Source of the DNA: Bacteroidaceae bacterium
GTDB taxonomy: Bacteria > Bacteroidota > Bacteroidia > Bacteroidales > Bacteroidaceae
Direction of reading: 5' to 3'
Length of the DNA: 61,157 nucleotides
Assembly: GCA_017429945.1 (NCBI GenBank)
Contig: JAFRNY010000040.1
Location: forward strand, 1 to 61,157
Part shown: positions 2,928-61,018 of the stretch, piece after piece
Layout: each line of letters begins with the position of its first letter
Numbering within the stretch: position 1 is the stretch's first letter
The notes under the pieces: generated by a model
The model's input: only the letters and a program-made list of their open reading frames with translations
Told to the model about the DNA's origin: nothing
Databases searched by the model: none
Made by a program: the position numbers and the translations under genes

Positions 2928-5633
2928 CCTATAAAGTTTGTCCATATCCAAATGTTTACGAACGTGGTCGGCCAAGCGGTCGTACTGCTCTTCCTTGAAG
3001 GCCGCATAGTCGAAGGAGCGGGCTTCAGCGGTGAAGCGGTCGGCAAAGGGAGCGAGCAGGGCATCGACAACAGGGGCGTTGTCGAGGACGCCATGAAGGT
3101 AAGTGCCCCAGCAGCGATTGCTGACGCAGTAGCCATCTTCGCGACCATCGTCGAGGAGGGCGAAGGGCTGAGAGGGCGCATCGCCGAAGGGACGGGTCTC
3201 GCCCATATGAATCTCGTAGGCTGAGCCACTTGCTCCGACGGGAGAACTGTCGGACGCACTCACGGAAGAGGGGACATCGTAGATCGAGAACTGGACCTGG
3301 CGTGTGACTTTCTCGCCGCTCATGGTCGTCGTGGTGGGCAGGAGACCGAGGCCAGGAAAGCGCTCGAGGTCGCCTTCGACGTGATCGGGGTCACAGACCT
3401 CGACGCCCATCATCTGATAGCCACCGCAGATGCCGATGACCGTCTTGCCATCGCGGTGAGCACGTTGGATGGCCTGGGCCACACCGTTGCGGCGCAGTTC
3501 GTAGAGGTCGTCGAGCGTGGACTTGGAGCCTGGCACGATGACGATGTCGGCCTTAGAGATTTCCTCGACGTTGTTGGTATAATAAAGATGTACGCGCGTG
3601 TCCTGCTCCAAGGCATCGAAGTCGGTGAAATTGGAGAGGTGGCGCAGCATGACAACGGCGATATTCACTCGTCCGCAGGCAGCCTGCTTCGACTTTCCCG
3701 AGAGCGAGACGCTGTCCTCCTCCTCGATATGGATGTCCTTGAAATAAGGTATGACACCGAGGACAGGCACGCACGTGAGTTCTTCTATCATGCGGCGACC
3801 ATCATCGAAGAGGCGCAGGTCGCCACGGAACTTGTTGATGATAATGCCCTTGATGCGGGCTCGGTCTTCGGGCGCCTGAAGCATGATGCTGCCATAGACC
3901 GAGGCGAAGACACCGCCGCGATCGATGTCGGCCACGAGGATGACGTTGGCATCAGCATGGCGGGCCATAGGAAGGTTGACGAGGTCGGTGGCACGCAGGT
4001 TAAGCTCCGAGATGCTGCCGGCCCCCTCCATGACGATGGGATTGTAGCGTGCTGCGAGGCGGTCGAAAGCGGCACATACCTCTTTGCGGAAATCGATGTC
4101 CGCGGTGTCACCCCCGCTGCGTTTCCAGTAGTCGTATGCGCTTTTGTTGCCGATGGGCCGACCGTGCAAGACGACCTGCGAAGTGTGGTCACTCTGCGGT
4201 TTCAGAAGCAACGGGTTCATGTCCGTATGGCAAGGGATGCCTGCAGCCTCAGCCTGAACAGCCTGCGCACGTCCTATTTCAAGACCTTCGGGCGTGGCGT
4301 AGGAGTTCAAGGCCATATTCTGCGCCTTGAAGGGAGCGGGGTGATAGCCGTCCTGCCGGAAGATGCGACAGAGGGCGGTAGCCAACACGCTCTTGCCGGC
4401 ATCACTTCCTGTGCCGCAGAGCATGATGTTATGTAATGACGAATGACGAATGACAAATGACGAATGAAATTTGCCATCAGGATTGGATTGTGATTTTGAT
4501 TCGTCATTACGAGCGGAGCGAGACTCGTCATTCGTCATTCTATCTGATTCGTCATTCTTAATATTCAACGCATCAATCAGTTCATCATCATCCTCCCTGG
4601 TCTGTGCCGCCACGCGGAAGTGATAGGGCGTGAGACCTTCAAAGTTGGAGGCATCGCGGATGAGGAGGCCGTTGCGCGTGGCCAGATGCTCTTTCAGCTC
4701 AGCGGCGGTAATGCCTAAGCGTTCGTCCAGACGACAGAGCATGAAGTTGGTGCTTGTAGGCTCGACGCTGATGCCATCAATAGCATGGAGGGCATTGCGT
4801 AGGCGCTGAGCCTCAGCGAGGTATGAGGTGAGTTCCGGGAGGACGCGCGCGTGGTTCCTGATCAACCAAGTCGCCGCCTCTATGGCCAAGGCATTCACCG
4901 ACCACGGACGCAGGCGCTGGCGCAACTGACCAATGAGCGCAGCAGCGCCGATGACATAACCGATGCGCAGGCCAGGAATGCAATAGGTCTTCGTGAGCGA
5001 GTGCAGTTGAAGGATATTACCTGCCGCTACGGCTTCGGCGGGCGACAGCAAAGGGGCAAGTGTATAGTCCTCGTAGGACTGGTCGAGGACAAGAAGGTGG
5101 TAGCGCTTAGCGAGGCCGAGAACGTCAGCTTTAGGGATGACCGAACCCGTGGGATTATTGGGGTTGCAGAGCCATGCAGAAGAGCCAACAGGCCCACCCC
5201 CAACGGACCCACCCCCCAGCCCCTCCCTGTGAGGGAGGGGAGTAGATACCACTGAGAGGTTGGCGTGGTGGCAGGCATCGGCATATTCTGAGAATGTGGG
5301 AGAAAAGATAACGGCCATTGAAAGGCAATCACTCCCCTCTCCCTTTGGAGAGGGATTGGGGGTGAGGCTGTTGTGGGTGAGGCTTGCTATTAGATATATC
5401 GCCTCCGTGGCGCCGCTCGTGACAAGCACGCAGTCCTCCCCCACTCCACTTTGCTCTGCGATGAGTCGTTCCAAGGCACGTGGTTCGGGTTCGGGGTACG
5501 TGCCGATGACATCGAGGCGTGAAGACAAAAACGTCTTCAACCCGCTGAGGTCAGCGTGGCTGAAGATGTTGCTACTGAAGTTATGACTGATGCCAGTGTA
5601 GCGGTAGGCATCGTCGCCGTGTCCTTGTAACAT
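2907..5633 (-). CDS. cobQ: CobC-CobQ fusion: threonine-phosphate decarboxylase / cobyric acid synthase
   Basis: A single 908-aa frame joins two cobalamin enzymes. Residues 1 to about 356 are a PLP-dependent threonine-phosphate decarboxylase-like domain (HNFSSNIFSHADLSGL; lysine in HSLTKTYCIPGLRIGY), which would supply the aminopropanol phosphate used by CbiB. Residues from about 404 (MLCGTGSDAGKSV) to the end are a CobQ/CbiP glutamine-dependent amidotransferase (P-loop, GAGSISELNLR, GICGGYQMMG with the catalytic Cys) that makes cobyric acid. The linker (residues 357-403) is translated from TGACGAA-type repeats, and two GC-rich repeats sit inside the CobC part (about residues 80-101 and 129-149). 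A -7 element 17 bp upstream suggests its own promoter in addition to riboswitch read-through. Re-initiation at the CobQ methionine (4424) is possible. Confidence 0.9.
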   Translation of the reverse strand: MLQGHGDDAYRYTGISHNFSSNIFSHADLSGLKTFLSSRLDVIGTYPEPEPRALERLIAEQSGVGEDCVLVTSGATEAIYLIASLTHNSLTPNPSPKGEGSDCLSMAVIFSPTFSEYADACHHANLSVVSTPLPHREGLGGGSVGGGPVGSSAWLCNPNNPTGSVIPKADVLGLAKRYHLLVLDQSYEDYTLAPLLSPAEAVAAGNILQLHSLTKTYCIPGLRIGYVIGAAALIGQLRQRLRPWSVNALAIEAATWLIRNHARVLPELTSYLAEAQRLRNALHAIDGISVEPTSTNFMLCRLDERLGITAAELKEHLATRNGLLIRDASNFEGLTPYHFRVAAQTREDDDELIDALNIKNDESDRMTNDESRSARNDESKSQSNPDGKFHSSFVIRHSSLHNIMLCGTGSDAGKSVLATALCRIFRQDGYHPAPFKAQNMALNSYATPEGLEIGRAQAVQAEAAGIPCHTDMNPLLLKPQSDHTSQVVLHGRPIGNKSAYDYWKRSGGDTADIDFRKEVCAAFDRLAARYNPIVMEGAGSISELNLRATDLVNLPMARHADANVILVADIDRGGVFASVYGSIMLQAPEDRARIKGIIINKFRGDLRLFDDGRRMIEELTCVPVLGVIPYFKDIHIEEEDSVSLSGKSKQAACGRVNIAVVMLRHLSNFTDFDALEQDTRVHLYYTNNVEEISKADIVIVPGSKSTLDDLYELRRNGVAQAIQRAHRDGKTVIGICGGYQMMGVEVCDPDHVEGDLERFPGLGLLPTTTTMSGEKVTRQVQFSIYDVPSSVSASDSSPVGASGSAYEIHMGETRPFGDAPSQPFALLDDGREDGYCVSNRCWGTYLHGVLDNAPVVDALLAPFADRFTAEARSFDYAAFKEEQYDRLADHVRKHLDMDKLYRIMTNGE
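4430..4562. repeat. TGACGAA-type repeats forming the CobC-CobQ linker
   Basis: Units such as AATGACGAATGACAAATGA occur at 4434-4467 and again, in the other orientation, around 4500-4557 (GTCATTCGTCATTC). They flank a short unique stretch and form a loose inverted pair. All are translated in frame as the NDESDRMTNDES and FHSSFVIRHSS segments. Confidence 0.8.
5186..5245. repeat. GC-rich palindromic repeat in the CobC domain
   Basis: CCCACCCCC occurs twice, followed by the palindrome CCCCTCCCTGTGAGGGAGGGG. It is the same family as at 100-190 and 845-963, and is translated as PLPHREGLGGGSVGGGPV within the decarboxylase domain. Confidence 0.8.
5329..5392. repeat. CCCTCTCC/GGAGAGGG repeat in the CobC domain
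   Basis: The palindrome CTCTCCCTTTGGAGAG followed by GGGATTGGGGGTGAG is translated on the minus strand as SLTPNPSPKGEG. This peptide type is familiar from repeat insertions in Bacteroidota proteins. Confidence 0.8.
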
Positions 5634-11148: not shown

Positions 11149-11194
11149 TGAAATCCGTTCGCCTAATCCTGGGCGACTTCATGATGATTGATGA

Positions 11195-11414
11195 AACGAG
11201 GCAGGTCTTCTGGCTTTCCCCGGTCTGCTTTACCTTCCCAGCACCTTAATGTGTCAACATATTAACTTGTTAATCTGTTAACTCGTCAACTGGCCAGTGG
11301 CGTTATACAAGCAAACCTTTTCTTTTTCGGGGGATTACAGCTGCAGGTACAGCTCCGGACTTACACCGGATTCCCTTGCATCGGAGGCTCTCAGGCCCAC
11401 GATTGCCTTGTTTG
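11195..11414 (-). promoter_or_regulatory. Cobalamin riboswitch
   Basis: Read on the minus strand the leader contains the hallmarks of the cobalamin riboswitch. In order they are GGGAATCCGGTG, TAAGTCCGGAGCTGTACC, CAGCTGTAATCCCC, GCCACTGG, CTGGGAAGG and the B12 box region GCCAGAAGACCTGCC. It starts at the predicted transcription start and ends about 46 bp before the btuB-like ATG. It should repress the minus-strand operon when adenosylcobalamin is plentiful. The arm between GCCACTGG and CTGGGAAGG is enlarged by an ATTAAC-type repeat. Confidence 0.95.
11250..11290. repeat. ATTAAC-type repeat inside the riboswitch
   Basis: TGTCAACATATTAACTTG and TTAATCTGTTAACTCGTCAA form 9-bp-spaced TTAAC/GTTAA units that match the family at 1698-1762. 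They lie between two conserved riboswitch blocks, in a peripheral arm that varies in length in the family. The flanking GTTGAC/GTCAAC could pair. Confidence 0.7.
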
Positions 11415-11420
11415 CGGGTG

Positions 11421-11428
11421 CAAAGTTA
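11421..11428 (-). promoter_or_regulatory. -7 promoter element of the cobalamin operon
   Basis: The minus strand reads TAACTTTG, a perfect TAnnTTTG element, about 7 bp before the first riboswitch bases. From here to the GH28-like stop at 11583 I see no gene or clear structure. Confidence 0.75.
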
Positions 11429-14776: not shown

Positions 14777-16114
14777 ATGAAAGCAGCATTCCTCATTGCA
14801 GCGCCCATGAGCGGTTCGGGCAAGACGACAGTGGCACGCGGGCTTATGGCCCTGCTCGCCAGGCAGGGCTTGCGCGTGCAGCCCTTCAAGTGCGGCCCCG
14901 ACTATATCGACACTAAATTTCACCAGGCTGCTTGCGGACGGCCATCAATCAACCTCGACACGTTTATGGCATCAGAGGAGCACGTGCGCGAACTCTTCGA
15001 TTGCTACACCCTCGGCGGCGACGGCGCACCGGTATGGGCACAAGAGCCCGCCGATGTGGCCGTGGTAGAAGGCATGATGGGCCTCTTCGACGGGTTCGAC
15101 CGCGATCGCGGCTCCTGTGCCGACATCGCCCGCGTACTGGACATTCCTATCGTCCTCGTCGTAGATGCCCGCTCGGCGGCTTACTCCATGGCGGCATTAC
15201 TGAAGGGATTCATCGGTTTTCGGACCGACCTACGATTCGCCGGCGTCATTTTTAATAAAGTAGGTAGCCCGCGCCACGCCGCAATGCTCCGTGAGGTGGC
15301 CGGCGAGGTGGGCATACCATATCTCGGCTGCATCCCTAAAGCGGCAGCACTGGAGCAAGGCTCGCGCTATCTCGGGCTCGATTTCTCGAAGAACGGCAGC
15401 GCAGGCGAACTCATGGACGTTCTCGAGGCCAACGTGGATTATACAAAACTTCTCGAAAATACGACCGGTTGCATAAGCCGATTCAACCGGTCGCACAGGC
15501 CAATTCAACCGGTCGCACAGGCCGATGCGACCGGTCGCATTTTTGTGGCTCGCAATGCAGAATCTTTTTCGTTCATCTACACCGAGACGCTCGACCTCCT
15601 GCGCCAGCGCGGACACATCGTTTTCTTTGATCCTGAGACCGACATTCCACAGTTCGACGACGCCTTGTTGCTGTACCTCCCGGGCGGCTACCCCGAGAAA
15701 CACCTTGCCGCTCTCGTCAGGGCCGAGCGCACGCGGCTAGCCATCAGAGACTTCGCCGCGGCGGGCGGACGTATCATTGCCGAATGCGGTGGAATGATGT
15801 ACTTGTGCAACGAGATTATCACTGATGAAGGCGCTTCTCCCATGTGCGGTGTGCTGCCCTACTCCATCAGCGCCCGGCAGGCCGACCGCCGTCTGGCGCT
15901 GGGCTACCGCCGGTTCTGTCTCGACGGCCACGAACTGCGAGGCCACGAGTTCCACTACACCCGCTTCGCCGACCCTCAGCCGCCCTCGGCCGTACAGGTC
16001 TTCAAAGCAAAAGGCGAGCCCGTGGCCACGCCTATTCTACGTGAAGCCAACGTGCTCGCCAGTTACGCTCATCTCTCGGCCGAAGCCATAGCTGCGTTTG
16101 CAAGTCTATATTAG
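14777..16114 (+). CDS. cobB: Cobyrinate a,c-diamide synthase
   Basis: A 445-aa CobB/CbiA enzyme, cytoplasmic, amidating carboxylates a and c of the corrin ring with glutamine and ATP. The N-terminal P-loop is APMSGSGKTTVARGLMALL; further landmarks are FKCGPDYIDTKFHQ, VEGMMGLFDGFD, and a C-terminal glutamine amidotransferase (LYLPGGYPEKH, AECGGMMYL with the catalytic Cys). It lies 2 bp after a sulfatase gene and outside the riboswitch-controlled cluster, an unexpected pairing. Residues about 228-255, between the synthetase and amidotransferase domains, are translated from a 22-bp-period repeat array. Its stop codon overlaps that of the convergent ATPase gene (TTAG shared). Confidence 0.94.
   Translation: MKAAFLIAAPMSGSGKTTVARGLMALLARQGLRVQPFKCGPDYIDTKFHQAACGRPSINLDTFMASEEHVRELFDCYTLGGDGAPVWAQEPADVAVVEGMMGLFDGFDRDRGSCADIARVLDIPIVLVVDARSAAYSMAALLKGFIGFRTDLRFAGVIFNKVGSPRHAAMLREVAGEVGIPYLGCIPKAAALEQGSRYLGLDFSKNGSAGELMDVLEANVDYTKLLENTTGCISRFNRSHRPIQPVAQADATGRIFVARNAESFSFIYTETLDLLRQRGHIVFFDPETDIPQFDDALLLYLPGGYPEKHLAALVRAERTRLAIRDFAAAGGRIIAECGGMMYLCNEIITDEGASPMCGVLPYSISARQADRRLALGYRRFCLDGHELRGHEFHYTRFADPQPPSAVQVFKAKGEPVATPILREANVLASYAHLSAEAIAAFASLY
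15461..15541. repeat. 22-bp-period ACCGGT array inside cobB
   Basis: ACCGGT cores begin at 15464, 15486, 15508 and 15530, exactly 22 bp apart. The cores sit in palindromic contexts (CGACCGGTTG, GCGACCGGTCGC), and two consecutive units are identical over about 20 bp (ATTCAACCGGTCGCACAGGC). The array is open in the cobB frame; since 22 is 1 modulo 3, the copies are read successively as FNRSHR, IQPVAQ and DATGRI. Confidence 0.9.
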
Positions 16115-39344: not shown

Positions 39345-40049
39345 ATGAAACACAAAGAAATCATTTCAGCAGCAATCATTGCGCTTGGAATCTGCGCACT
39401 CGGATGGTTCGTGAAAGCCGGCATCGACGACTTTGTCGACAAGGACCGCCGCGTGAGCGTCAAGGGCCTGGCCGAGCAGGAAGTGCCTGCCGACAAAGTG
39501 ACGTGGCCCATCGTCTCAAAGGAAGTAGGCAACGACCTGCCCAGCCTCTACGACCGCATCGGAGCCACACAGGCTAAGATCAAGAACTTCCTCACGTCAG
39601 CAGGCATCACGGCCGAAGAGCTGACCGAGAACGCCCCCTCCGTGGCCGACCTCGGCGCACGCGAATACGGCGACCGCAACCTGCCCTATCGCTACATCGT
39701 GACGTCGGTTATCACAGTGACGTCGAAGGACGTGCCCAAAGTGCGCGGCATCATGGCACGCCAGGGCGACCTGCTCAAGGAAGGCGTGGCCATCGTCGAC
39801 GGCGGCTACGAGAACCCCGTGAAGTACGAGTTCGTCGCCTTCCGCGAGATGAAGCCCACGATGATGCAAGAGGCCATCGCCAATGCCGAGAAGACGGCCG
39901 AGCAGTTTGCCGAGAACTCGCATTCGCGCCTCAACAAGATTGTGAGCGCCGACCAGGGTCAGTTCTCTATCGAGGACCGCGACTCCAACACGCCTTGGAT
40001 AAAGAAAGTGCGCGTAGTCACGACAATCACCTACTCGCTTAAGAACTAA
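39345..40049 (+). CDS. SIMPL domain-containing protein (DUF541)
   Basis: A 234-aa protein with one N-terminal membrane anchor (ISAAIIALGICALGWFV) and the SIMPL/DUF541 domain: RRVSVKGLAEQEVPADKVTW, AKIKNFLTSAGI, TSVITVTSKDVPKV. It is likely anchored in the inner membrane and facing the periplasm. The biochemical role of this family is not firmly known. The gene is complete and followed by a strong hairpin at 40102. Confidence 0.88.
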   Translation: MKHKEIISAAIIALGICALGWFVKAGIDDFVDKDRRVSVKGLAEQEVPADKVTWPIVSKEVGNDLPSLYDRIGATQAKIKNFLTSAGITAEELTENAPSVADLGAREYGDRNLPYRYIVTSVITVTSKDVPKVRGIMARQGDLLKEGVAIVDGGYENPVKYEFVAFREMKPTMMQEAIANAEKTAEQFAENSHSRLNKIVSADQGQFSIEDRDSNTPWIKKVRVVTTITYSLKN

Positions 40050-40298: not shown

Positions 40299-40380
40299 AC
40301 GACCGGTCGTATCCGCTAATACGACCGGTCGAAAACGACGACGCGACCGGTTGCATACGCCGATGCAACCGGTCGCGTTT
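40299..40380. repeat. 22-bp-period ACCGGT array (intergenic)
   Basis: ACCGGT cores begin at 40302, 40324, 40346 and 40368, exactly 22 bp apart, the same number and period as in cobB. The first two are perfect palindromes (CGACCGGTCG). The last two face each other as GCGACCGGTTGCAT and ATGCAACCGGTCGC, forming a 14-bp perfect stem followed by GTTTTT, so the end could also terminate plus-strand transcription. The array lies just beyond the GH51 stop. Confidence 0.9.
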
Positions 40381-40395
40381 TTCTATGCATCCGTA

Positions 40396-42888
40396 TTACT
40401 TCGTCTTCACACGCAGTATGCTGAGCGAGAAGGGAGGAACGGGATAGTCTATTGCGCTGGCGCCCTCGACGTTACGGAGCTGATATTCCATGGGCGACAC
40501 ATTGAGCTGGGCGCGCATGGAGTTCTCGTCGCTGCCCTTTTCCGAGGCAAGGAAGCTGACGAGAGGCTGCCCGACTACGGCTGTGCCCAGGTTCAGCTTG
40601 ACCGTCTGTGCCGCCGACGTAGGATTCACGAGCTTGATAATCAACTCGCTGGTCTTCTCGTCGAAAGTAGCGTTGGCATAGAGGCTCTGGCGCTCTGGCA
40701 GGCTGAACTCGTGCACCTGCTTGCCGTCGAGCAGGCAGCGGGCTGAAGCGCCGCGCACCGCGACCTCGACATTGTACCAGCGGCCCTCTTCAAGCGTGCC
40801 TTGAGCTGCCGCAAGCGTATTCTTGCCGCCGTCGGCCATGTGCTCTATAGCGTGCTGCGAATTGCCCCAGCCGCCCAGGTTCCACCACAGGAGGTTCTCG
40901 TCGTCATCGGCACCGAAGACGATGAGGAAACCTTCGTTGCCCTCCAGACGACGGGCCTGGACGCGCAGCGTGTAGTCATCGGGCAGCACAGTATTGTTGA
41001 GAATGACCGAGCCCTCGGCGCGCTGGTTCTGCTGCTGGAGCACACCGTTGCCGAATGCCCATTGGCTCTGCGTGCGACGGCGACCGTCGGCCTCACCGCC
41101 AAAATTCTGCCACTGGCCGTTGTCGGCGGCAAAATCGTCCTTCAGAATCACCTTGCCGTCCTTGTCCACCACCTCGAGGTTGCGGAACTCAGCCTTCGTG
41201 CCCCAAGTGGAGAAACCTACACGATGGCCGATAGTCGGGGCCAGCGTGTTATTCTTCACGCTGACGGGCACAATGCGCGTACCTATATTATTAGCCATCA
41301 TCTGCTGCACGTGGTATGACGGCGTGCCGAAGCTCTCCGAGGCGTTGAAGCGAATCATGTCGGGTCGCCAGGCGGGGTTGTGCTCATTGACGAAGATGGG
41401 AGCGTAGCTGCCCATGACGACGATGTCGGAATTGCGCTCGAGGCCCTGCATATAAATGGCCTCGCCCAGCGCAGCCGTCAGGTGGCCGTTGACGCCATAG
41501 CCCTGCGTGACGGCATATTCGCCGATGTAGATCTTCGGGCCGCGGCGGTCGTAGCTGTCGTACTTGTTGAAATTCTTCTCGAACCACGATGGCGAGCGAT
41601 AATAGTGCTCATCGAGGATGTCAACAGGGTGCTCAGAGCGCCACGACGGCTCATCGGTGCCCCAAGCCTCAACGTTACCGATAATCTGCACGTCGGGGTA
41701 CTTGGCCTTGATGGCTCGGTAGAACTGGATGTAGCGCTCGAAGTAGTGGTCGCTCTGGTCGCGGTTGTTGCCGAAATAGAAGTTGGCATTCTCGTTGCCC
41801 ACCTCCAAGAGGCGCAGGCCAAAGGGCTCGGGATGACCATTCTTGGCGCGAAGGGCACCCCACTTCGTCGTCTTGGCATCGCCGTTGGCATACTCGATGG
41901 CATCCAAGGCCTCCTGGATGTACTCCTCGAGCTGGTCATAGGGTTGCAGCCAGCCGTGGCCGAGGCCCACATTGACCACGAATAGCGGCTCAGCGCCCAG
42001 ATCTTCAGACAGTTGCAGCATCTCGTGGTAGCCGAAGCCGTCGGTGATATTGTAGCCCCAGTTGACAGAGAGGTGACCCGGTCGCTGCTCGATGGGGCCA
42101 ATGGTGTTCTTCCACTCGAAACGGTTGTGGAGCGTGTTGCGAGGCGTAGTCTGGCCCTCGACGTAGCAGCCGCCGGGGAAGCGCATAAACTTCGGGTGCA
42201 GGGCTTCGAGCAGTTCGGCGAGGTCGATACGACAGCCGTTCTCGCGACCCTTGTACGTCGGCGGGAAGAGGCTCACAACGTCGAGCGACAACGAGCCGGG
42301 AGCGCTGAACGTCAGCGTCAGCCGGCCGTCGGGACAGCTGCCTGTGGCCAGCACCGGCACGCCCTTCACCTGCGTCCACTGCCCGGCCTTAAGCTTCAGA
42401 GGCACGGTCGTCTGCCCGAGGTTAGCGCCCGAGGGACTGTTCAACGAGACCGTAAGATTACCCTTGTAAGCCGCTTCAGCCTTGATCCAGGCCGAGAATG
42501 TATAAGTCGTCTGCTGGCGGAAAGCCATACCCCAGTAGCCGTCGTTCTGCACGCCACCGCCCGCCTCACTGACGCGGAGGCTCAGGTGGTGCGCCTGACG
42601 GTCGTTGAGTGTGCCGGAGGTCGACAGCGCCTGTGTGGCCTTGCCAACCGTGGTCCAATGCACGGGACGATCGGCATCGTCCTCGAACGAGCGGTTCTGA
42701 ACGAGCTCGGCGTACAGGCCGCCGTCGCCGGCATGATTGATTTCCTCGAAGAAAATACCATAGAGCGTGGGGCTGACAGTTGCACCGAGGTGCTGAACGT
42801 CAACATCCACTACGGGCTGAGCGCTTGCTCCTATCGCCGCGAAAAATGCCGCAGCAAGAAGCGTCGGCCGGGGAAATAAGTGTGTCAT
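40396..42888 (-). CDS. Alpha-L-arabinofuranosidase, GH51
   Basis: An 830-aa secreted enzyme that releases arabinofuranose from arabinan, arabinoxylan or arabinogalactan. It starts with a signal peptide (MTHLFPRPTLLAAAFFAAIGASAQ) and GH51 landmarks (TLYGIFFEEINHAGDGGLYAEL). A carbohydrate-binding module inserted at about residues 75-215 is followed by the barrel with the acid/base glutamate in LEVGNENANFYFG and the nucleophile in YIGEYAVTQGYG. A laminin G-like domain (FRNLEVVDKDGKVILKDDF onward) precedes the C-terminal sandwich. It pairs logically with the GH53 and GH28-like enzymes in pectin side-chain breakdown, though these are not clustered. Single gene with its own promoter. Confidence 0.94.
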   Translation of the reverse strand: MTHLFPRPTLLAAAFFAAIGASAQPVVDVDVQHLGATVSPTLYGIFFEEINHAGDGGLYAELVQNRSFEDDADRPVHWTTVGKATQALSTSGTLNDRQAHHLSLRVSEAGGGVQNDGYWGMAFRQQTTYTFSAWIKAEAAYKGNLTVSLNSPSGANLGQTTVPLKLKAGQWTQVKGVPVLATGSCPDGRLTLTFSAPGSLSLDVVSLFPPTYKGRENGCRIDLAELLEALHPKFMRFPGGCYVEGQTTPRNTLHNRFEWKNTIGPIEQRPGHLSVNWGYNITDGFGYHEMLQLSEDLGAEPLFVVNVGLGHGWLQPYDQLEEYIQEALDAIEYANGDAKTTKWGALRAKNGHPEPFGLRLLEVGNENANFYFGNNRDQSDHYFERYIQFYRAIKAKYPDVQIIGNVEAWGTDEPSWRSEHPVDILDEHYYRSPSWFEKNFNKYDSYDRRGPKIYIGEYAVTQGYGVNGHLTAALGEAIYMQGLERNSDIVVMGSYAPIFVNEHNPAWRPDMIRFNASESFGTPSYHVQQMMANNIGTRIVPVSVKNNTLAPTIGHRVGFSTWGTKAEFRNLEVVDKDGKVILKDDFAADNGQWQNFGGEADGRRRTQSQWAFGNGVLQQQNQRAEGSVILNNTVLPDDYTLRVQARRLEGNEGFLIVFGADDDENLLWWNLGGWGNSQHAIEHMADGGKNTLAAAQGTLEEGRWYNVEVAVRGASARCLLDGKQVHEFSLPERQSLYANATFDEKTSELIIKLVNPTSAAQTVKLNLGTAVVGQPLVSFLASEKGSDENSMRAQLNVSPMEYQLRNVEGASAIDYPVPPFSLSILRVKTK

Positions 42889-58388: not shown

Positions 58389-58937
58389 ATGACGCAGATA
58401 GACCACACAATCATCACACGATGCCAAGCGGGCGACCGGGACGCGTTCCGGCTAGTCGTAGAGAGGTGTCAGGCGATGGTGTTCTCTATTGCACTGAAGA
58501 TGTTGGCCGACGAGGACGAGGCGAAGGACATCGTGCAAGAAACTTTTCTGCGCGTATGGCAGCACATCGGCAAGTACGACCCACGGCGAAGCTTCACCAC
58601 ATGGCTATACGCCATTGCCTCACGCCTCTGTCTCGACCGCCTCAGGAGCAGCACACGCATCGTGGCGCTGCCCGAGGACGAAGCCGTGATGCAACGTTTT
58701 GCCTCTGCCGACGGACAACTCGAATTAGAGAACCGGGAGTGGGCGGCTATTGTGCGACTGCTGGCAGAGGGACTAAGCCCTAAGCAGCACCTCGTCTTTA
58801 CGCTATGCCAGCTCGAAGGACTCTCATCGCAGGAGGCCGAGGAGGCTACGGGCTTGACAGCCAAACAGATTAAGAGCAACCTATTTGCTGCTCGACAAAC
58901 TATTCGCGAACGCTTAAGGCACATGGGATATGAATAA
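58389..58937 (+). CDS. ECF-type RNA polymerase sigma factor
   Basis: A 182-aa sigma-70-family protein with region 2 (DAFRLVVERCQAMVFSIAL, DEAKDIVQETFLRVWQHIGKY, spanning residues about 18-65) and region 4 (LSSQEAEEATGLTAKQIKSNLFAARQTI, near the C-terminus). No sigma region 1 or 3. The next gene overlaps it by 8 bp and has one membrane helix, the usual arrangement for a sigma factor and its membrane anti-sigma. Confidence 0.93.
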   Translation: MTQIDHTIITRCQAGDRDAFRLVVERCQAMVFSIALKMLADEDEAKDIVQETFLRVWQHIGKYDPRRSFTTWLYAIASRLCLDRLRSSTRIVALPEDEAVMQRFASADGQLELENREWAAIVRLLAEGLSPKQHLVFTLCQLEGLSSQEAEEATGLTAKQIKSNLFAARQTIRERLRHMGYE

Positions 58938-59661
58938 AATCAACGACATTCTCGACAGCCTTCAAGGCCGTCAGCCTAAGATTAAGGACAGCTGGGACCT
59001 GACCGAAAGCATCTTGAAGAAGGTCGAGGAACAACAGGCCGCTGGGCTCAGCAACAACATACTCGCCAGCCGCAGTTCTCAAGAAACGCCTAGCTCCTCA
59101 TTCCCGGCAGGCACGCACAAGCGCAAGGCCTCCCTGTGGCGATGGGCTGCTGCGGCAGCAATCATCATTGCAGCCGGCCTCGGAGCAACGATCTACCAAT
59201 CGCAAACGTCACAGCAGAAAGGCGAAAGCGGCAGTCTCACCAGTGAGACAAATCAGTCTCACCTGCGAGACACGACAGTCTCACCAAGGAGACAAGCCGA
59301 TACATCCGCACGCATCGCACAAGACGACCTCACGCAAGAGCCATCACGACCGGTCAAATCGGTCCGCACGACCGCATGTCCCACCACAACTTTCTCTAAG
59401 AAGGAAATGGCTGCCTCGGAAAACAATGGTCAGCCTGCCCGAAAGCCCCGGAATAACGAGGACCTGAAACCTGGGCAGAGCACTATGCCAGCCGAGCCTG
59501 TCGCCGAGGAACAGCCCATGGCACTATCCTCCGTCCCTCAGGATGTAACGGAGACCGATCCACGCTTTGATGCTTACGCTCACATCGAGAAGGAGATGCG
59601 AGAGATTCACTCTCGAGGTGAAAAGGTTGAAGCTTTGGTGGCCGAAATCACAAAGCCATAG
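58930..59661 (+). CDS. Putative membrane anti-sigma factor with repeat-derived region
   Basis: A 243-aa protein with a cytoplasmic N-terminus (about 60 residues, KINDILDSLQGRQPKIKDSW), a single membrane helix (LWRWAAAAAIIIAAGLGATIY, residues about 66-86) and an extracytoplasmic tail ending in a helical segment (AHIEKEMREIHSRGEKVEALVAEI). No ZAS-type zinc motif is seen; the anti-sigma role is inferred from position, overlap with the sigma gene and topology. Residues about 101-123 and 130-150 are translated from two different 22-bp-period repeat arrays, so much of the tail just outside the membrane is repeat-derived. Confidence 0.65.
   Translation: MNKINDILDSLQGRQPKIKDSWDLTESILKKVEEQQAAGLSNNILASRSSQETPSSSFPAGTHKRKASLWRWAAAAAIIIAAGLGATIYQSQTSQQKGESGSLTSETNQSHLRDTTVSPRRQADTSARIAQDDLTQEPSRPVKSVRTTACPTTTFSKKEMAASENNGQPARKPRNNEDLKPGQSTMPAEPVAEEQPMALSSVPQDVTETDPRFDAYAHIEKEMREIHSRGEKVEALVAEITKP
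59233..59298. repeat. 22-bp-period AGTCTCAC array in the anti-sigma gene
   Basis: AGTCTCACC starts at 59233, 59255 and 59277, exactly 22 bp apart. Each unit contains the palindrome GTCTC-N6-GAGAC plus a short spacer. Three units make 66 bp (22 codons), and the copies are read in three different frames (SLTSET, SHLRDT, VSPRRQ). Confidence 0.88.
59321..59386. repeat. Decayed 22-bp-period ACGACC(GGT) array in the anti-sigma gene
   Basis: ACGACC begins at 59324, 59346 and 59368, exactly 22 bp apart. Only the middle unit keeps the full ACCGGT core seen in cobB and at 40302-40373; the third reads ACCGCA and the first ACCTCA. This suggests an older, eroded copy of the ACCGGT array. Confidence 0.7.
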
Positions 59662-60904: not shown

Positions 60905-61018
60905 TAATCATCATACATTATCAATTATACATTATCAATTATACAGTGTCAATTATACATTATCAATTATACATTATTAATTATACATTATCAACTATAC
61001 ATTATACATTATACATTT
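60905..61018. repeat. AT-rich 14-bp tandem repeat (ATTATCAATTATAC)
   Basis: About eight degenerate copies of a 14-bp unit (TTATACATTATCAA) lie between the last gene and the rRNA terminator. Like the GTCATTC family, the unit is built from 7-bp halves. Confidence 0.85.

Follow-up and report, generated by a model that had tools for sequence, protein, structure and literature searches.

REP and RPE sequences are short dispersed palindromes which, in the available part of their description (PMC3733652), lie mostly downstream of genes or between convergent or co-directional genes, with some in frame inside ORFs. BrickBuilt of Porphyromonas gingivalis is a minisatellite inside a MITE, dispersed in the genome and made up of tandem 23-nt repeats with predicted stem-loops and variable copy number; the accessible text of that paper (PMC4596501) also mentions, without detail, 22-nt tandem repeats in strain W83. 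In the uptake-signal terminators of Neisseria and Pasteurellaceae a genome-typical word is paired into terminator hairpins (PMC1852404, in the part available), and the Beggiatoaceae and five Bacteroidetes carry abundant intergenic direct-repeat arrays of the heptamer TAACTGA (PMC4679880, likewise in part).

The window analyzed here is a stretch of 61,157 nucleotides from a Bacteroidaceae bacterium (contig JAFRNY010000040.1), and about a quarter (741 kb) of the genome that holds it, G000, was read. Its cobB gene, the product of which we take to be cobyrinate a,c-diamide synthase, contains a tandem array of the palindrome ACCGGT (Table 1). ACCGGT arrays resemble REP/RPE sequences and MITE-minisatellites, but their exact pitch, species dialects and shared seats within genes are unusual. 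Like REP and RPE sequences, they are found near the 3' ends of genes (15 of 21 arrays; 12 of 46 segments between convergent genes) and some are located in genes. Unlike these, they form uniform head-to-tail 22-bp arrays without a GTAG/CGTC tag or a correlation with transposases, and across some species they occupy the same codons with changing cores. RAYT mobilisation was rejected, the Y1 transposase being uncorrelated with the arrays in 11 genomes. Considered as an in-frame insertion of the Rickettsia type, the cobB array is unclear in the closest relative, G220, with unlike arrays in six other species.

BrickBuilt shares the Bacteroidales host, and a composite repeat of G220 is similar to it in build; as far as its description goes, it has a 23-nt unit, 19 intergenic copies, a leader and a tail. 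The arrays reported here differ in their 22-bp unit and the variety of their cores; flanks are not shared in G000, and some copies lie in genes. Uptake words also show species dialects (PMC3630211, in the part available), but a genome contains at least a thousand copies of them, of which many are not in terminators; here the pitch is fixed, and single ACCGGT cores are as frequent as chance predicts. The TAACTGA heptamers, which in the available text are 7-nt repeats near start codons, are comparable to separate 7-bp arrays of G000. An earlier reading of the window from its letters alone (the sequence-only reading) knew of no named element of this description; our literature search likewise gave none recognized as matching a 22-bp-period array family, and no Rfam family was found at the arrays.

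Table 1. Positions of arrays and associated features (numbers without a prefix refer to the window)
Feature	Location	Strand	Remarks
cobB	14777-16114	+	CbiA + GATase_3; reads through 22-bp array
Whole cobB element	15456..15544	+	A-run, TACG, four ACCGGT cores at 22 bp, CGCA, T-run
ACCGGT core 1 of cobB array	15464..15469		
ACCGGT core 2 of cobB array	15486..15491		
ACCGGT core 3 of cobB array	15508..15513		
ACCGGT core 4 of cobB array	15530..15535		
Second ACCGGT array, 4 cores	40302..40373		Between convergent genes 39345-40049 (+) and 40396-42810 (-)
Third 22-bp array	59232..59295		Other core, GTCTCACC..GAGAC; in frame in predicted gene 58930-59661
G220 composite loci	L102, L111, L120, L123, L126, L133, L142, L144, L153, L158, L161, L166		
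11-bp arrays	L045:14998-16089, L087:12854-12981, L091:220-426		
7-, 8- and 14-bp arrays	1694-1759, 2009-2041, 2452-2486, 2837-2925, 4435-4467, 60913-61017		

The array within cobB

Pfam analysis of CobB revealed a CbiA domain at residues 6–192 and a GATase_3 domain at residues 262–436, with the array in the linker between them. This confirms what the sequence-only reading had reported, namely four cores 22 bp apart between the two domains. The outer ends of the element, AAAATACG and CGCATTTT, are near-complementary with one mismatch. Its fold beats 200 of 200 shuffles (z -5.2), and a terminator-like match comprises 15508–15535 plus TTTTT (by count of this pattern, 2 found against 0.4 expected). 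The earlier statement that no stop appears in any frame holds for the reading frame of cobB and for one of the two other forward frames; the remaining one is closed by a TAA in unit 1. Since at least two forward frames remained open in 1988 of 5000 base shuffles of this stretch, the openness of the cobB array is unremarkable. Three of its six frames are open, and the corresponding figure for 20 other ACCGGT arrays ranges from 0 to 6.

A cobB match was found in 46 of 101 genomes, and 30 places were fetched, 23 with intact and seven with split genes. The linker was periodic at 22 bp (p < 0.001) in seven of the 23 intact genes, those of G000, G238, G191, G196, G189, G188 and G160, with units unlike one another, and cobB of G220 showed weak 22-bp periodicity (p 0.02) and no clear array. 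Alignment within the genus, a check which the sequence-only reading had proposed, revealed that residues 226–256 are not common to the orthologues. Within the interdomain linker the cobB array is most likely a passenger, and this linker is best seen as a repeated carrier of such arrays in the genus, the G000 copy being tolerated. Should translation lag, the hairpin and T-run of this copy could bring about some premature termination.

The split genes (L202, L203, L205, L207, L208, L209 and L211) consist of two ORFs in different frames, broken at the interdomain linker, with just 11 nt between the two domain matches. The cobB linkers of G175 and G160 (L195 and L197) contain long inverted repeats, in frame. 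A cobalamin riboswitch is located at 11183–11425 (minus strand) in the window, a few genes away from cobB.

Distribution of the family

Among palindromic hexamers in the window, the top spacing was that of ACCGGT at 22 bp, with six pairs, including those of the array between convergent genes. The latter folds into two tandem hairpins and is terminator-like on both strands. The predicted gene that holds the third array gave no Pfam match. The alternative named in the sequence-only reading, that the genome might hold no further arrays, is contradicted by 105 places with ACCGGT-N16-ACCGGT in the whole of G000, against none for the backward control.

The ACCGGT arrays in the G000 sequence read, 21 at first and 20 fetched later, have two to eight cores each: two in 6 arrays, three in 4, four in 12, five in 9, six in 5, seven in 4 and eight in 1. 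Those in coding DNA have 2, 4 and 4 cores, too few for a rule in the comparison of coding with intergenic unit numbers that had been suggested earlier. Forty of the G000 stretches were partly, and 20 short ones wholly, chosen for known arrays; the array densities are therefore not unbiased. The 20 stretches from the genus comprised 18 around cobB and two around ACCGGT matches, and six of the 20 from the family lay around single pattern matches. Genes were called with an in-house codon-usage script.

In the 741 kb there were 149 copies of ACCGGT, against 215 expected by base composition, and 77 of them were in arrays. The 72 outside arrays compare with 62 expected from a Markov model; being neither avoided nor excessive, the hexamer was rejected as a restriction site or uptake word. 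The longer palindrome CRACCGGTYG was found 63 times in arrays and three times alone, with 4.1 alone expected by composition.

An ACCGGT pair matched in 14 of 151 genomes of the family, more than once only in G000 (105) and G110 (27). The pattern flanked by CR..YG occurred in four of 139 genomes of the genus: G000 (76), G220 (27), G110 (2) and G249 (2). Among the matches listed in a wider pattern scan (at least 80 stretches), 23 came from four Bacteroidaceae/Bacteroidales MAGs; the remainder, generally a single stretch in each genome, were treated as chance. A scan of viral contigs gave six stretches. The backward control, TGGCCA-N16-TGGCCA, matched four to seven times in G064, G095, G103 and G110, possibly as another core dialect.

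Pitch, cores and unit structure

ACCGGT arrays do exist, are widespread and have a constrained pitch. All 101 pairs of neighboring ACCGGT less than 44 bp apart in the G000 sequence read were at exactly 22 bp, with none at 20, 21, 23 or 24 bp. Up to 120 bp, there were 101 at 22, 10 at 44, two at 66, one at 63 and one at 109 bp; the long stretches alone gave 51, 3, 2, 1 and 1, respectively, and the remaining 50 pairs at 22 bp came from short stretches fetched for holding such pairs. Over 101 comparisons, 5.09 of the 16 positions differ between adjacent spacers, and such substitutions without indels point to a length constraint or to a length-keeping copying process. The core is near-invariant and the arms are variable. 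The sequence-only reading had pointed out that 22 bp is about two helical turns: the strictness of the spacing was upheld and makes such phasing possible.

Period-22 segments numbered 11 in G095 and nine in G010, against zero to four for the other periods from 19 to 28; these two genomes were chosen for their backward-control matches, and within them contigs were read in numerical order. The palindromes seen there do not resemble ACCGGT (e.g. ACTTAAGT, TTTATCACGTGTGATAAA and CCCAACTGGG). In other genera of the family (511 kb) there were 13 segments at 22 bp, 10 at 21 bp and at most five at each remaining period from 16 to 60. Units of 22 bp were palindromic (at least six of eight dyad pairs) in 26 of 45 cases in G000, against 15% of shuffles, and in 22 of 40 in other members of the genus, against 19%. 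At other periods the excess over shuffles was smaller (48 of 113 against 27% in G000; 36 of 88 against 26% in the other members). Strict palindromes provided too few events for 11-bp dyad phasing independent of the letters.

Position relative to genes

The 46 period-22 segments of G000, including the window, comprise 12 between convergent genes, 13 between tandem genes, five between divergent genes, three in coding DNA and 13 unplaced at the ends of stretches. The 12 convergent segments occupy 10 gaps, and convergent gaps make up 13,611 of 95,019 intergenic bp. The nearest gene end was a 3' end for the 15 of 21 ACCGGT arrays given above and for 14 of 19 when two coding ones were left out, compared with 0.496 for random intergenic positions.

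Ten genomes were searched for the gene at 40396–42810, and a close orthologue with its 3' side was obtained in seven, where hairpins were judged by eye. An ACCGGT array lies at this place in G220, as in G000, and another 22-bp array in G191, while in G110, G190, G153 and G238 there is one unlike hairpin, followed by a T-run; the place in G160 is ambiguous. For a second gene (L039:14197-14874), also judged by eye, the 3' side has ordinary hairpins with T-runs in G220, G190 and G153, hairpins with poor tails in G191 and G249, inverted 7-bp repeats in G238 and nothing clear in three other relatives. The third gap compared lies downstream of L085:7588-8604; here 22-bp arrays with different cores occur in G220 and G110, and no array was visible in seven relatives.

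Arrays inside other genes

Three genes of G000 contain in-frame ACCGGT arrays, namely cobB, a Mur-ligase-like gene and the HATPase_c region of a large kinase-like ORF. The array in the second of these covers residues of about 442–460, within Mur_ligase_C (354–486). The alignment of G000, G220, G249 and G110 is gapless here, each with a 22-bp stretch of its own core; the identity at a lag of 22 is 0.59–0.66, and 99.9% of CDS windows have 0.52 or less. The array is thus present in four of six orthologues. In the other two, those of G191 and G238, this place is 11 residues shorter, which indicates an in-frame gain or loss of the array at some time. Only distant matches to this gene were found in G153 and G190.

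The HATPase loop of the kinase-like ORF aligns without gaps in five of six genomes (G000, G220, G153, G190 and G110), and G249 has an insertion. Lag-22 identities are 0.82, 0.84, 0.43, 0.52 and 0.55, respectively (p 0.00005 to 0.02). The core in G220 is the same as in G000, and it is made of other letters in G153, G190 and G110. Between the close relatives G153 and G190, amino acid identity is 0.59 in the loop and 0.96 and 0.93 in its flanks. At the 29 predicted pairs of this loop, four double and three single changes kept pairing and five pairs were broken; three of the double-compensatory changes fall within one helix.

Hairpins and terminators

A fold z-score of -3 or below was obtained on at least one strand for 20 of 21 arrays. 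Tandem hairpins predict that complementarity should alternate between spacers; this idea arose from the first 21 arrays, and 20 further arrays served to test it. Where the number of cores was even, arm pairing was 3.05 of 5 in odd spacers and 1.91 in even spacers for the first set (permutation p 0.0065), 3.32 versus 2.57 for the nine arrays fetched after the idea was formed (p 0.0115) and 3.18 versus 2.28 for the pooled 18 (permutation p 0.0002). Even-numbered arrays in G220 and G110 go in the same direction with few spacers (10 odd and two even; 11 and four). End bases paired in 32 of 49 odd and six of 25 even spacers (Fisher 0.0012), a difference which fell short of significance when the held-out arrays were taken by themselves (Fisher 0.096). 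When all arm pairs were pooled there was no covariation excess (2.58–2.70 of 5 against 2.68 for random arm pairs). In one array (L299), the cores TCCGGT and ACCGGA stand as partners. The bases flanking the core were Watson-Crick pairs in 38 of 90 cases in G000, thus without covariation, and in 41 of 53 in G220, where many copies belong to one repeat family.

A- or T-runs were located beside 13 of the 21 arrays of the first set and beside six of the 20 held-out arrays. The latter had TTTT in five and AAAA in four cases, which compares with 12.8% and 12.4% of random intergenic 16-mers. The low figure in the held-out arrays makes the terminator reading weaker than the hairpin reading.

Possible origin and function

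On balance we give an even chance to the arrays being a palindromic minisatellite that acts as tandem hairpins, often at terminator positions. The cobB array is one copy of a genome-wide 22-bp-period family, taken here as a dispersed, fast-evolving minisatellite with palindromes of about 14 bp at an exact 22-bp pitch. It would act at the level of the nucleic acid, cores 1 and 2, 3 and 4 and so on forming hairpins with an 11-bp stem and a 6-nt loop. In intergenic DNA, the hairpins are predicted often to replace bidirectional intrinsic terminators, and copies within genes may be tolerated owing to their location in protein linkers or loops. The units would multiply via tandem duplication, and changes might be copied between arms and units, so that the cores would drift together and the pitch would be inherited. 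Against hairpins, RNA hairpins alone need neither an exact 22-bp pitch nor a conserved core with variable arms, and some G000 arrays have the same pitch with a non-palindromic ATAGGG core. Against termination, an array within coding DNA cannot serve as an ordinary terminator, and several relatives have no clear hairpin at the second and third loci compared above.

Since the exact pitch and conserved core are unexplained by RNA hairpins alone, the main rival is an array of phased binding sites. The cores, on one helical face and two turns apart, would be recognized by a DNA-binding protein (or recombinase) acting in trans, and the species dialects would reflect co-evolution of protein and site. 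This we consider possible but doubtful. Neighbors stay at 22 bp despite diverged spacers, a near-invariant core stands between variable arms, single CRACCGGTYG is at chance level, and the same codons are used across species with other cores in the genes compared; some in-gene cores resemble other arrays of the same genome (G110 and G190), and 21-bp arrays also occur. Binding alone, however, does not predict the alternating pairing of spacers. Several unlike cores are present within one genome, ACCGGT is not avoided outside arrays, and the bases flanking the core do not covary in G000.

A further reading, again possible but doubtful, is a genus-wide palindromic dyad lattice with an 11/22-bp pitch independent of the letters, serving as a recognition array for a putative trans-acting factor and co-opted at gene ends for termination. 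Equally tentative is its corollary that the dialect changes while pitch and positions are kept in the genes and gaps compared, even in the Mur-ligase-like and kinase-like genes. Were arrays so kept inside protein domains, a nucleic-acid signal would override the protein sequence there. If true, repeats that change their letters at constant pitch would be a DNA- or RNA-level element shaping proteins in rumen Bacteroidaceae. The family would offer a tractable case for the spread and divergence of terminator-like hairpins and for whether a protein reads a two-turn dyad lattice.

A mobile REP- or MITE-like palindrome moved by a transposase, with the arrays as its tandem form, appears improbable. 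The 12 composite loci of G220, which combine a long conserved flank on the left, containing a near-perfect palindrome (about 50 bp), with two to five arrayed ACCGGT cores and a shorter conserved tail, would suit it. So would the 11 residues by which the Mur-ligase-like region exceeds those of G191 and G238, as in an in-frame gain, and the habit of REPs of favoring 3' ends and occurring in genes (PMC3733652, in the part available). In G000, on the other hand, the flanks share no sequence beyond arms and A/T tails, and a GTAG/CGTC tag or its complement lies within 20 nt of an array end in only zero to three of 21 arrays per end. Matches to PF01797 (Y1_Tnp) do not track ACCGGT pairs: there is one strong match in G000, one below the cut-off in G220, none in G110 or G249 and four in G095, which has no pair.

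Very unlikely, in our view, is a functionless minisatellite made and homogenized in 22-bp units by replication slippage, to which palindromes are prone. Units are indeed alike within an array, arrays of 7, 11 and 14 bp are present too, and array regions outpace their flanks, as in the kinase loop of G153 and G190. Yet diverged spacers show no spacing other than 22 bp, complementarity alternates, and the 22-bp peak recurs in other members of the family. Period-7 segments, moreover, are rarely convergent: the 74 found in the 741 kb comprise 45 tandem, eight divergent, four convergent, six coding and 11 unplaced. Finally, the suggestion of the sequence-only reading that selection kept the element open in three frames, or that it was filtered so as to survive only in blocks of three, can practically be dismissed. 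Coding DNA does contain three in-frame ACCGGT arrays, but stops are present in most of the others, chance is expected to leave two forward frames open, and the core counts show no blocks of three, only 16 of 41 arrays spanning a multiple of three periods.

Other tandem arrays

Three 22-bp arrays of G000 (L049:6828-6962, L053:4537-4634 and L083:16951-17095) have the non-palindromic ATAGGG in place of ACCGGT, with much of the unit kept. A 22-bp array of about ten units of CCTGCTGCTCCGGTCATCTCAC stands directly after a gene (L047:18097-18317). The 11-bp arrays, which are scattered over G000, form a single sequence family (AAGGGGAGTTA / TTTAACTCCCC and their variants), and the tandem arrays of 7, 8 and 14 bp in the window constitute a separate, abundant class (Table 1).
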